From an uncultured Pelagibacteraceae bacterium (GTDB taxonomy: Bacteria > Pseudomonadota > Alphaproteobacteria > Pelagibacterales > Pelagibacteraceae), in contig CABZDS010000001.1 in assembly GCA_902524595.1 (NCBI GenBank), forward strand, positions 124,001-188,000: DNA of 64,000 bases, in the 5' to 3' direction. The notes under the pieces are model-generated. The model was not told the DNA's origin. It saw only the letters and a program-made list of their open reading frames with translations, and searched no databases. The position numbers and the translations under genes are program-made. The first letter of the stretch is position 1; the number at the start of each line of letters is the position of its first letter. This document shows positions 44,396 through 51,147 of this stretch, piece by piece.

Positions 44396-45607
44396 CTAAA
44401 CTTTCTCAAACACTAATGTTGCATTAGTTCCACCAAAACCAAAGCTATTAGACATAATTGCGTTTAAATTTACATCTTTTTCAACTTGTGTAACAATTGG
44501 ATAATTTTTTGCTTCGTCATCCATTTCTGCAATATTTGCTGATGCTGAAATAAAATTATTTTTCATCATTATCAAACTGTAAATTGCTTCATGAACTGAA
44601 GTTGCACCTAATGAATGACCAGACAAAGACTTAGTTGAACTTATCTTAGGTTTATAATCTGGGAAAGCTTCGCCAACTGCTTTTAATTCTGTAATATCAC
44701 CTACAGGCGTAGATGTCCCGTGAGTGTTGATATAGTCAATTTTATTTTTTGAAGTTGCAAGGGCCATTTTCATACATCTCACTGCTCCCTCACCAGATGG
44801 CGCAACCATATCATAGCCATCTGATGTTGCTCCATATCCAGTTAATTCGGCGTATATTTTAGCACCTCTTGCTTTGGCATGTTCGTATTCTTCTAAAACA
44901 AGAACTCCACCTCCACCAGCAATTACAAAACCATCTCTTGTTTTATCATACGGTCTTGAGGCTTTTTCAGGGGTATTGTTATATTTTGATGATAGTGCAG
45001 TCATTGCATCAAACATTGCAGTCATTGCAAAGTGAACCTCATCACTTCCACCTGCAAAAATAATATTTTGTTTTCCTAATTGAATAAGTTCCATTGCATT
45101 ACCAATACAATGACCACTCGTCGCGCATGCAGAACTTATTGTGTAATTTGTTCCTTTTATTTTAAATGGAACCGCAAGAGTGGCGGATGCAGTACTTGCC
45201 ATTGTTCTTGGAACTATAAATGGACCCATCTTCTTAGGATTTTTTTCTCTAGTTTTATCAGATGCTAAAATCACATTTTCAATTGATGGTCCTCCAGATC
45301 CCATAACCATTCCTGTTGAAATATTACTAACTTCATTTTCCTTTAATCCCGAATCTTTGACTGCTTCACTCATAGCAACATAATTGTATGCTGATCCAGC
45401 ACCCATAAACCGAATAACTTTTCTATCAATGTAATCTTCTAATTTGATATTAGGTTTGCCATGGACATGGCTCTTTAAGTTATGTTCTTTATATTCCTCA
45501 GAAAATGTTATTCCTGATTTTGTATTAACTAACGATTGATAAACTTCTTCCTGATTATTTCCTAAACATGAAACTACACCAATTCCTGTTACAACTACTT
45601 TTTTCAT
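44396..45607 (-). CDS. fabB: 3-oxoacyl-ACP synthase I FabB
   Basis: [59 protein letters not shown]. Confidence 0.95.
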
Positions 45608-46173: not shown

Positions 46174-46179
46174 TTGCTT

Positions 46180-46590
46180 ATGACTAGTAAACAAGAATTT
46201 ATTAAAAAATTAAGAAACTCTAACTTAAGACCAACAAAACAAAGAATTAATATATGTGAAGTTCTATTTAACAGAGATAAAACTTTCCATTTTACAATAA
46301 ACGACTTGTTCAATTTAATTAAGGACAAAACAGAAGAAAAAGTATCTTTAGCGACTGTTTACAATACAGTTCATGCATTTCACAAAAAAGGTTATTTAAA
46401 AGAAATACCAATTAATTCTAATCAAACTTACTTTGATACAAATGTCACAGATCACCACCATTTCTTTGATGTTAAAGAGGAAAGGCTAATTGACTTAAAA
46501 AATGAGGATGTAGGACCGATTGAAATTCAAAAATCTATTCCCGGAAAAAAAATCAAGTCTGTTGAAGTTCTCGTTAAATTAGAGGATTAA
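46180..46590 (+). CDS. irr: Iron response regulator Irr (Fur superfamily)
   Basis: [52 protein letters not shown] with HHH motif; ATG at 46180 (TTG alternative at 46174). Confidence 0.9.
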
Positions 46591-46636
46591 ATCCTTAAAG
46601 CTACATTAAAACCATTCTAACTCATTGACATTCTTC

Positions 46637-46653
46637 TTTAGAATAATTATAAA
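46637..46653. promoter_or_regulatory. Irr-box (ICE)-like element upstream of katG
   Basis: TTTAGAATAATTATAAA, 37 bp before the katG ATG; flanked by direct repeats AACTCATTGA at 46619-46628 and 46655-46664. Confidence 0.55.
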
Positions 46654-46677
46654 AAACTCATTGAGTAAATAACATAG

Positions 46678-48927
<2,250 letters not shown>

Positions 48928-48949
48928 TATAGAAGAGGCGGAAAAAAAA

Positions 48950-49546
48950 ATGACATCATTAAATTTTGAAGATTTTTACAAAGTTCCTGAAATAAAATTT
49001 GACATCTCAAAGTTAAGAAAAGATCTAGATGCAATATTAGAGAAAAAGAGATTTAATTCACCAGGGATAACTCACTTTGGCGCAATACCTTTAAATCAAA
49101 TTCCTAATGATGAAGAGTCAATAAAGGGAAATAACATTAGAGGAAAATATTGGACTATTGCTGACGAGACAGGTAGGGAAGTTTCAAGAGATATTGATAT
49201 TGATGAGTCAAAATATACCCAGTTAGTACCTGAATTTGAGAATACATATTTCAAAGAAGTTTATGAGATTTTGAGCAAAAAATTTAAATTGGGTAGAGTT
49301 AGGCTTCTATTAAAAGAGCCAAGATCAGTATTAAGTTGGCATAAAGACCCAGAGTGTAGATTGCATATTCCAATAGTAACTAATGCAGGTTGTTCAATGG
49401 TCATTGAAAATGTGGCTAAACATCTTCCAGCAGATGGACATGTTTGGATTACAAATAACACAAAATATCACAATTTTTTCAACGGAGGTGAGCAAGCCAG
49501 AGTTCACTTAGTTGCTTGCGTACTAGAAAGTCCATTTAAAAAATAA
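48950..49546 (+). CDS. Aspartyl/asparaginyl beta-hydroxylase-like 2OG-Fe(II) dioxygenase
   Basis: VLSWHKDPECRLHIPIVTNAGCSMVIE ... HNFFNGGEQARVHLVACV: HxD...H...R arrangement. Confidence 0.75.
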   Translation: MTSLNFEDFYKVPEIKFDISKLRKDLDAILEKKRFNSPGITHFGAIPLNQIPNDEESIKGNNIRGKYWTIADETGREVSRDIDIDESKYTQLVPEFENTYFKEVYEILSKKFKLGRVRLLLKEPRSVLSWHKDPECRLHIPIVTNAGCSMVIENVAKHLPADGHVWITNNTKYHNFFNGGEQARVHLVACVLESPFKK

Positions 49547-49578
49547 TAAGCAAACTTAGTGATATAAATTAATTCTCT

Positions 49579-50742
49579 ATGAACGCATTCATTGCCGCTG
49601 TATTAGAAAAAAAAACAATTTTAGTTGCAAATGAAGGAAGATTATTAAAGAAAAGTTTCTTAGGAATTGCTATTTTGGCAATGGCTTTTCAAACTAACAG
49701 CTTCGGTGAAATGATAAGAAGTTCGTTAGTCGACGCTTACCTACAAGTATCAGTTTTTGTAGGTTTTACTTTATTCATTTTTATAGGATTGGATTCGCTC
49801 ACAAAGTTCAATATCTCATATATTTTAAATAAAACCAAAAAATATCACGTAGCAATTTCATCTTTATTAGGTGCATTGCCAGGCTGTGGGGGAGCAATTG
49901 TTGTTGTAACTCAATACATTCAAGGAAGAATTAGTTTTGGATCCTTAGTAGCTGTCTTAACAGCTACAATGGGTGATGCAGCGTTTTTACTTCTTGCGAT
50001 TGAACCTATAACTGGTTTATTGATATTTACATTAGGAGCTACAGCTGGATCAATTTCTGGATATATTGTTGATAAAATTCATAATGAAAATTATCTCCAG
50101 GGTAATTCAAAATTAAAAATAGAATTCGAGAAGATTTCCACTACGTTTGTTTCTAAATTCAATTTCTTTTGGACAGTTATTTTTTTACCTGGTTTTGTTA
50201 TAGGTTTATTTTTAGCTTTCCAAGTTGATATTGATCAAATGCTAAATATTCCAGGCAACTTAAGTATAGTCCATACAATCGGAGCATTAGGTGCTATTAT
50301 GTGTATATTTATGTGGTCACTCAATCCATTAAGTGATTTTCAATGTTCTACCGACAGAAATAGAAATGTTTTGTCAAGAGTTGTTGATACAACAAACTTT
50401 GTTACTACCTGGGTAATTTGCGGTTTTTTAACTTTTGAAATTTTCATCTATTTTACTGAATATGATCTAAAAGCATTTTTTGAAGTATGGTTGCCTATAG
50501 TTCCCTTAATAGCTATATTATTTGGGTTTCTACCTGGATGTGGACCACAAATTATTGTTACAACTTTTTATCTAAGCGGTTCCATTCCACTATCAGCTGA
50601 AATAGGAAATGCTATATCTAATGATGGTGATGCACTATTTCCTGCTATTGCACTAGCACCTAAAGCTGCAATTGTAGCAACTTTATATAGCGCTATTCCA
50701 GCGATCCTTTTTGCTTACGGGTATATGTTTTTGTTCGAATAA
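49579..50742 (+). CDS. Putative manganese/metal transporter, polytopic membrane protein with duplicated PGCG motifs
   Basis: LGALPGCGGAIVVVTQYIQGRISFGSLVAVLTATMGDAAFLLLAIEP and FGFLPGCGPQIIVTTFYLSGSIPLSAEIGNAISNDGDALFPAIALAP; multiple TM segments. Confidence 0.7.
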   Translation: MNAFIAAVLEKKTILVANEGRLLKKSFLGIAILAMAFQTNSFGEMIRSSLVDAYLQVSVFVGFTLFIFIGLDSLTKFNISYILNKTKKYHVAISSLLGALPGCGGAIVVVTQYIQGRISFGSLVAVLTATMGDAAFLLLAIEPITGLLIFTLGATAGSISGYIVDKIHNENYLQGNSKLKIEFEKISTTFVSKFNFFWTVIFLPGFVIGLFLAFQVDIDQMLNIPGNLSIVHTIGALGAIMCIFMWSLNPLSDFQCSTDRNRNVLSRVVDTTNFVTTWVICGFLTFEIFIYFTEYDLKAFFEVWLPIVPLIAILFGFLPGCGPQIIVTTFYLSGSIPLSAEIGNAISNDGDALFPAIALAPKAAIVATLYSAIPAILFAYGYMFLFE

Positions 50743-50817
50743 GCAAAAAAAATATATTTTTTAGAATTAAACCTTGTCAGTCATTTGATTTAATAAAAAT
50801 ATTTGACTGGGTCAAAG

Positions 50818-50837
50818 TAAATAATAATCATTATCAA
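50818..50837. promoter_or_regulatory. Fur-box-like operator A
   Basis: TAATAATCATTATCA (50822-50836) differs from TGATAATnATTATCA at one base. Confidence 0.65.
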
Positions 50838-50876
50838 TAAAATATATGAATTTTTTTTATAAGGATAATTCGTAAC

Positions 50877-50894
50877 AATAATAATTATTCGCAA
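50877..50894. repeat. Fur-box-like operator B (18-bp direct repeat copy 1)
   Basis: AATAATAATTATTCGCAA. Confidence 0.6.
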
Positions 50895-50906
50895 AAAAAA
50901 TGTGTA

Positions 50907-50924
50907 AATAATAATTATTCGCAA
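50907..50924. repeat. Fur-box-like operator C (18-bp direct repeat copy 2)
   Basis: AATAATAATTATTCGCAA, identical to copy 1, offset exactly 30 bp. Confidence 0.6.
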
Positions 50925-50967
50925 GGATATTTGTTGAAAATAATTTTTTCATATTTAATCTTAAAAT

Positions 50968-51147
50968 ATGCAAATAGAAAATTATAATTGTAAAAAATGT
51001 GGATTAACAATTTCATCAACTTGTTCCAAGTGTGATAAAATAGTTGATGTCGAGGTCCTTGATGATGGATGTATTGTTCAAAAGACTAAATGTACTGATT
51101 GTGCAAATGCTCCAGTGATCAAAGACGTATGTGTCCAACAAAAATAA
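50968..51147 (+). CDS. 59-aa Cys-rich putative metal-binding protein (not in ORF track)
   Basis: MQIENYNCKKCGLTISSTCSKCDKIVDVEVLDDGCIVQKTKCTDCANAPVIKDVCVQQK; three CxxC plus two further Cys; downstream of three Fur-like boxes. Confidence 0.7.
   Translation: MQIENYNCKKCGLTISSTCSKCDKIVDVEVLDDGCIVQKTKCTDCANAPVIKDVCVQQK

Follow-up and report, generated by a model that had tools for sequence, protein, structure and literature searches.

The question raised by this locus is whether an open reading frame of 59 codons, rich in cysteine and placed behind Fur-like boxes, encodes a functional protein, and what such a protein might do in the iron physiology of SAR11. The window analysed is a stretch of 64,000 nucleotides from contig CABZDS010000001.1 of an uncultured Pelagibacteraceae bacterium. 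Translation of the forward strand at 50968-51147 reproduced exactly the 59-aa protein given in a preliminary description of this DNA, with cysteines at positions 8, 11, 19, 22, 35, 42, 45 and 55 (hereafter the 8-Cys protein and gene). The ORF was absent from the ORF track, as that description had said, for the sole reason that it is 59 aa long and the track was limited to 60 aa; a run with a 40-aa limit listed it.

Full-length, uninterrupted homologues with 65-95% identity were recovered from 13 of 60 relatives in the relatives search. All eight cysteines were invariant across 29 diverse orthologues, and dN/dS, with synonymous change far exceeding amino-acid change, was mostly 0.04-0.13 among the pairs shown; the preliminary description had named unconserved cysteines or a dN/dS near 1 as the outcome that would overturn its reading. 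A spurious ORF could be suspected from the short length, the AT-rich region and the presence of other chance Cys-rich ORFs, and a high cysteine count alone is insufficient proof of a gene, because another eight-cysteine ORF of the window (45080-45268, +), most likely a chance ORF, lies antisense to FabB. For the 8-Cys gene this reading was ruled out by the selection and conservation tests, which included a conserved start codon, promoter and operators; its probability is negligible, and the ORF is almost certainly a real gene under purifying selection. Feature coordinates are collected below.

Table. Features of the 8-Cys gene and its upstream region (window coordinates)
Feature	Position	Strand	Details
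Fur box 1, TAATAATCATTATCA	50822..50836	.	13/14 to TGATAATNATTATCA; also found in the own-genome scan (G000:C1:174822)
Fur-like box 2, TAATAATTATTCGCA	50879..50893	.	11/14; relative position kept in close relatives
Fur-like box 3, TAATAATTATTCGCA	50909..50923	.	11/14; just upstream of the -35 element
Predicted -35 element, TTGAAA	50934..50939	+	First T in 34/34 upstreams; second T and G in 79%
Predicted -10 element, TAATCT (consensus TAnnnT)	50956..50961	+	T in 94%, A in 97%, last T in 94% of 34 upstreams; 16-bp spacer
Gene for the 59-aa eight-cysteine protein	50968..51147	+	Translation, orthologues, invariant cysteines, dN/dS well below 1

Matches to the 8-Cys protein were found in 170 of 397 Pelagibacterales genomes, roughly 145 of which carried the 8-Cys type (E below 1e-20, counted from the table) and the remainder a related type described below as the MATY subfamily. 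The best 80 named relatives were Pelagibacteraceae single-cell genomes and MAGs, which places the window in SAR11. A search of viral contigs and phages with the 8-Cys family returned no relatives, and a plasmid search with a MATY relative as query gave no match.

Fur boxes were scored against the 7-1-7 palindrome TGATAATNATTATCA within 250 bp upstream, at a threshold of 12/14. The Fur-like boxes of the preliminary description were present, at the scores tabulated above. Boxes of at least 12/14 preceded the gene in 84 of 92 distinct Pelagibacteraceae upstreams, against 1.6% of shuffled sequences and 0.4% of stretches drawn at random from the window; some of the 92 are near-identical, so independence is to be counted by genomic context, not by sequence. 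In many orthologues the box lay at roughly -59 to -66 relative to the ATG, and divergent orthologues in new contexts kept one near -65. No Fur box was found upstream of orthologues from another order (G679, G756). The region ahead of the 8-Cys gene (50876-50924) contains two copies, 30 bp apart, of an approximately 18-bp stretch, AATAATAATTATTCGCAA. A scan of the own genome gave six sites that match TGATAATNATTATCA with one mismatch or none, including those of the 8-Cys gene, of futA (a ferric-binding protein) and of a second Asp/Arg hydroxylase gene; the remaining three lie inside genes and are probably chance occurrences. The site between hemB and the second hydroxylase gene is a perfect palindrome (L138 1501-1515, G000:C7:18184), and boxes of 13-14/14 at that place were kept in some relatives (L211-L216, L228) and absent in others.

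The conserved upstream layout consists of the Fur box followed by TTGaaa (-34 to -29) and TAnnnT (-12 to -7), with a 16-bp spacer between these two. With the promoter in this position the transcription start is expected at or near the ATG, and we infer that the 8-Cys mRNA is leaderless. The futA gene, whose counterpart in Ca. P. ubique is sfuC, served as positive control: its Fur box likewise lies just upstream of the -35 element, and all futA orthologues tested had a box of at least 12/14. A 2016 survey describes 7-1-7 Fur boxes in SAR11, standing before Fe3+ ABC transporter components and FTR1, and gives strain HTCC7211 as having no apparent Fur boxes (PMC4771312). The 8-Cys gene carries this type of box with the same placement upstream of -35 as futA/sfuC, but is a non-transporter gene that goes unmentioned in the passages of the survey consulted. 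From the operator, control by Fur appears very probable. The sfu genes of Ca. P. ubique are induced by iron limitation, sfuC by 16-fold (PMC2864753), and since futA shares the operator and promoter layout, the 8-Cys gene is read by analogy as an iron-limitation gene, with induction under iron limitation quite likely.

In the window the 8-Cys gene directly follows an ArsP2-type transporter gene (49579-50742), and the preliminary description had suggested that the protein acts with this transporter. The adjacency recurred in one other case (G295, L197), giving 2 of 119 loci, and in other contexts the 8-Cys gene is still preceded by a promoter and operators of its own. As a general rule the partnership was refuted by these neighbour statistics, and we regard it as very improbable despite the adjacency in the window. 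An Asp/Arg hydroxylase gene was the nearest called upstream gene at 107 of the 118 other loci, and those inspected had a small membrane-protein ORF separating it from the 8-Cys gene; in the window the ArsP2-type gene fills the position of that ORF. A hydroxylase partnership was also considered and rejected, the adjacency looking like clade synteny that is lost in other contexts. Other lineages had the 8-Cys gene between dapB and dnaJ, beside a thiolase gene, near recJ, after fabI or elsewhere, amounting by our count to at least nine unrelated contexts, with gene names mostly read from the sequences and not from family searches. These quite different places mark the gene as an independent unit, which the sequence shows to be monocistronic.

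No Pfam or NCBIfam model scored above cut-off for the 8-Cys protein. The best match was the DZR double zinc ribbon (PF12773; E 0.0013), which shares the N-terminal CxxCG...CxxC pattern but scored 19.3 bits against a curated cut-off of 27.3 and was limited to residues 5-29. The rubredoxin family model gave no match at E<=1, and an RCKP-type match, below cut-off, was obtained for a MATY relative only. AlphaFold2 models from two runs were poor (pLDDT 62 and 64); a PDB fold search with the low-confidence model gave no match, and PDB sequence profile searches gave insignificant matches only. The haloarchaeal zinc-finger microprotein HVO_2753 (PDB 6ydh), with four C(P)XCG motifs, resembles the 8-Cys protein in size, cysteine content and standalone nature and gave a weak local profile match (hmmsearch E 0.83 with alignment A1, 1.4 with alignment A4), but it differs in cysteine spacing, has no demonstrable homology and is not known as Fur controlled. 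HVO_2753 binds only one Zn, 5 of 14 haloarchaeal C(P)XCG microproteins did not bind zinc, and in related CxxCG proteins a site may stay unoccupied, which structure predictors cannot tell (PMC11241148).

The MATY subfamily, an uncharacterised homologue (MATYECxxCGMxVNAxCxKC...HGKIKSPxCCGxDM), occurs in other Pelagibacterales and extends to other Alphaproteobacteria and a further class of the phylum. It has C8, C11, C19, C22, C42 and C55 in common with the 8-Cys type, but has H46 (or C45) and C56 where the latter has C35 and C45, and its genes are without Fur boxes (best scores 8-11/14). The two types occurred together in no Pelagibacterales genome listed; both were present in G756, from another order, and are therefore paralogues. 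The ligand exchange matches two separate four-ligand sites, of which the N-terminal one is constant and the C-terminal one rebuilt. The two four-cysteine sites of the preliminary description are accordingly plausible, and on this pattern the 8-Cys protein probably has two metal sites. Residues G34, V37, K41, P49 and D53 were also invariant in the 29 orthologues, a pattern that suits a protein interface better than a metallothionein. The net charge is 0, giving no sign of nucleic-acid binding; together with the conserved non-cysteine residues it points to a protein partner and not to nucleic acid or pure buffering.

Among 147 genomes, 40 carried the 8-Cys gene, 27 of the same genus carried rubrerythrin and none carried both, in counts uncorrected for kinship. 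Between irr and a block of SH3, ThiF, Dut, CoaBC and UbiB genes lies either katG, often with the Asp/Arg hydroxylase and 8-Cys genes, or a rubrerythrin module (rubrerythrin, a CCG-domain protein and DUF3501). Modules that physically replace each other at this locus partly explain the zero overlap, yet four genomes with the 8-Cys gene elsewhere (G067, whose gene has a 12/14 Fur box in L192, G069, G077 and G139) also had katG at the irr locus. The modules appear to have swapped several times (window 46174-51147, L304-L316). On a UbiB tree they changed about six times, three of these changes being forced by well-supported branches, and the 8-Cys gene went the opposite way to rubrerythrin, in 3 to 6 independent pairs, which are too few for significance. 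Because the tree genomes were picked by gene content, the absence of any overlap among the 147 is the observation free of bias. Genome G095 has katG and lacks the 8-Cys gene, and katG is therefore not sufficient. A ferritin link was also considered and dropped, the single PF00210 match examined having turned out to be rubrerythrin. A second operator type, TTAGAATNATTATAA or its reverse complement, stands close to a TTGACA-like -35 element in the promoters of katG and rubrerythrin alike (window about 46600-46690 and further upstream regions); the adjacent Irr-like regulator may recognise it.

Our best explanation is that the 8-Cys protein is a cytosolic microprotein of SAR11 (Pelagibacteraceae) that acts as an iron-sparing, zinc-ribbon-like adaptor. 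Fe-Fur would repress the gene at sufficient iron, and at iron shortage the protein would be made from its leaderless mRNA and fold round two metal sites of four ligands each. C8, C11, C19 and C22 would form a zinc-ribbon-like N-terminal site, and C35, C42, C45 and C55 a C-terminal one, both predicted to hold most likely Zn rather than Fe. In the most speculative step, the protein would bind a client as adaptor, in an iron-sparing response of katG-type, rubrerythrin-free SAR11 lineages. Against repression, Fur could in principle activate from the position of the box. The explanation as a whole, including Fur repression, two sites and client binding, is put forward tentatively, at somewhat under an even chance.

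Among the alternatives, a small electron carrier, rubredoxin-like or Bfd-like, would bind Fe or an Fe-S cluster and reduce an iron store or a peroxidase. Bfd is a known small redox protein of iron starvation, and such a role would also suit the CxxCG knuckle and the reciprocal occurrence with rubrerythrin; but neither a rubredoxin nor a Bfd model matched, the spacing CX2CX7CX2C is unlike that of rubredoxin, an iron-requiring protein would be odd under iron shortage, and the own genome has no ferritin-family match, leaving this reading rather unlikely. Slightly less doubtful, though still unlikely, is a metal buffer or chaperone whose eight cysteines would bind Fe(II) or Zn(II) and pass it to iron or Fe-S enzymes at iron shortage. 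The eight invariant cysteines and the Fur boxes would fit it, as would the upregulation of suf genes in iron-limited P. ubique (PMC2864753), but the conserved non-cysteine residues exceed a buffer's needs and the contexts examined showed no genomic link to suf genes; the metal-storage role offered in the preliminary description fits poorly with an operator layout common to the iron-starvation gene futA. That description had also raised a zinc-ribbon regulator, here a transcription or RNA regulator of iron-responsive genes. The zinc-ribbon resemblance of the N-terminus stands, if below cut-off, and iron sparing in B. subtilis involves small proteins under Fur control (by the title of a work cited in PMC2864753), but those proteins are basic, and the net charge of 0 makes a regulator improbable.

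Iron regulation in SAR11 has been described as very small, essentially Fe transporters, and the 8-Cys gene adds to it a conserved non-transporter with the same operator, in hosts whose surroundings offer very little iron. The gene would, if confirmed, serve as a compact marker of iron stress in SAR11, and it raises the question of what role a two-metal microprotein has at iron shortage. More broadly, and with low probability, a so far unrecognised family of iron-starvation microproteins, whose gene travels together with its Fur operator as a cassette, may let katG-type SAR11 dispense with rubrerythrin; if true, the most abundant marine heterotrophs would hold two alternative peroxide/iron strategies, with the 8-Cys gene as marker.
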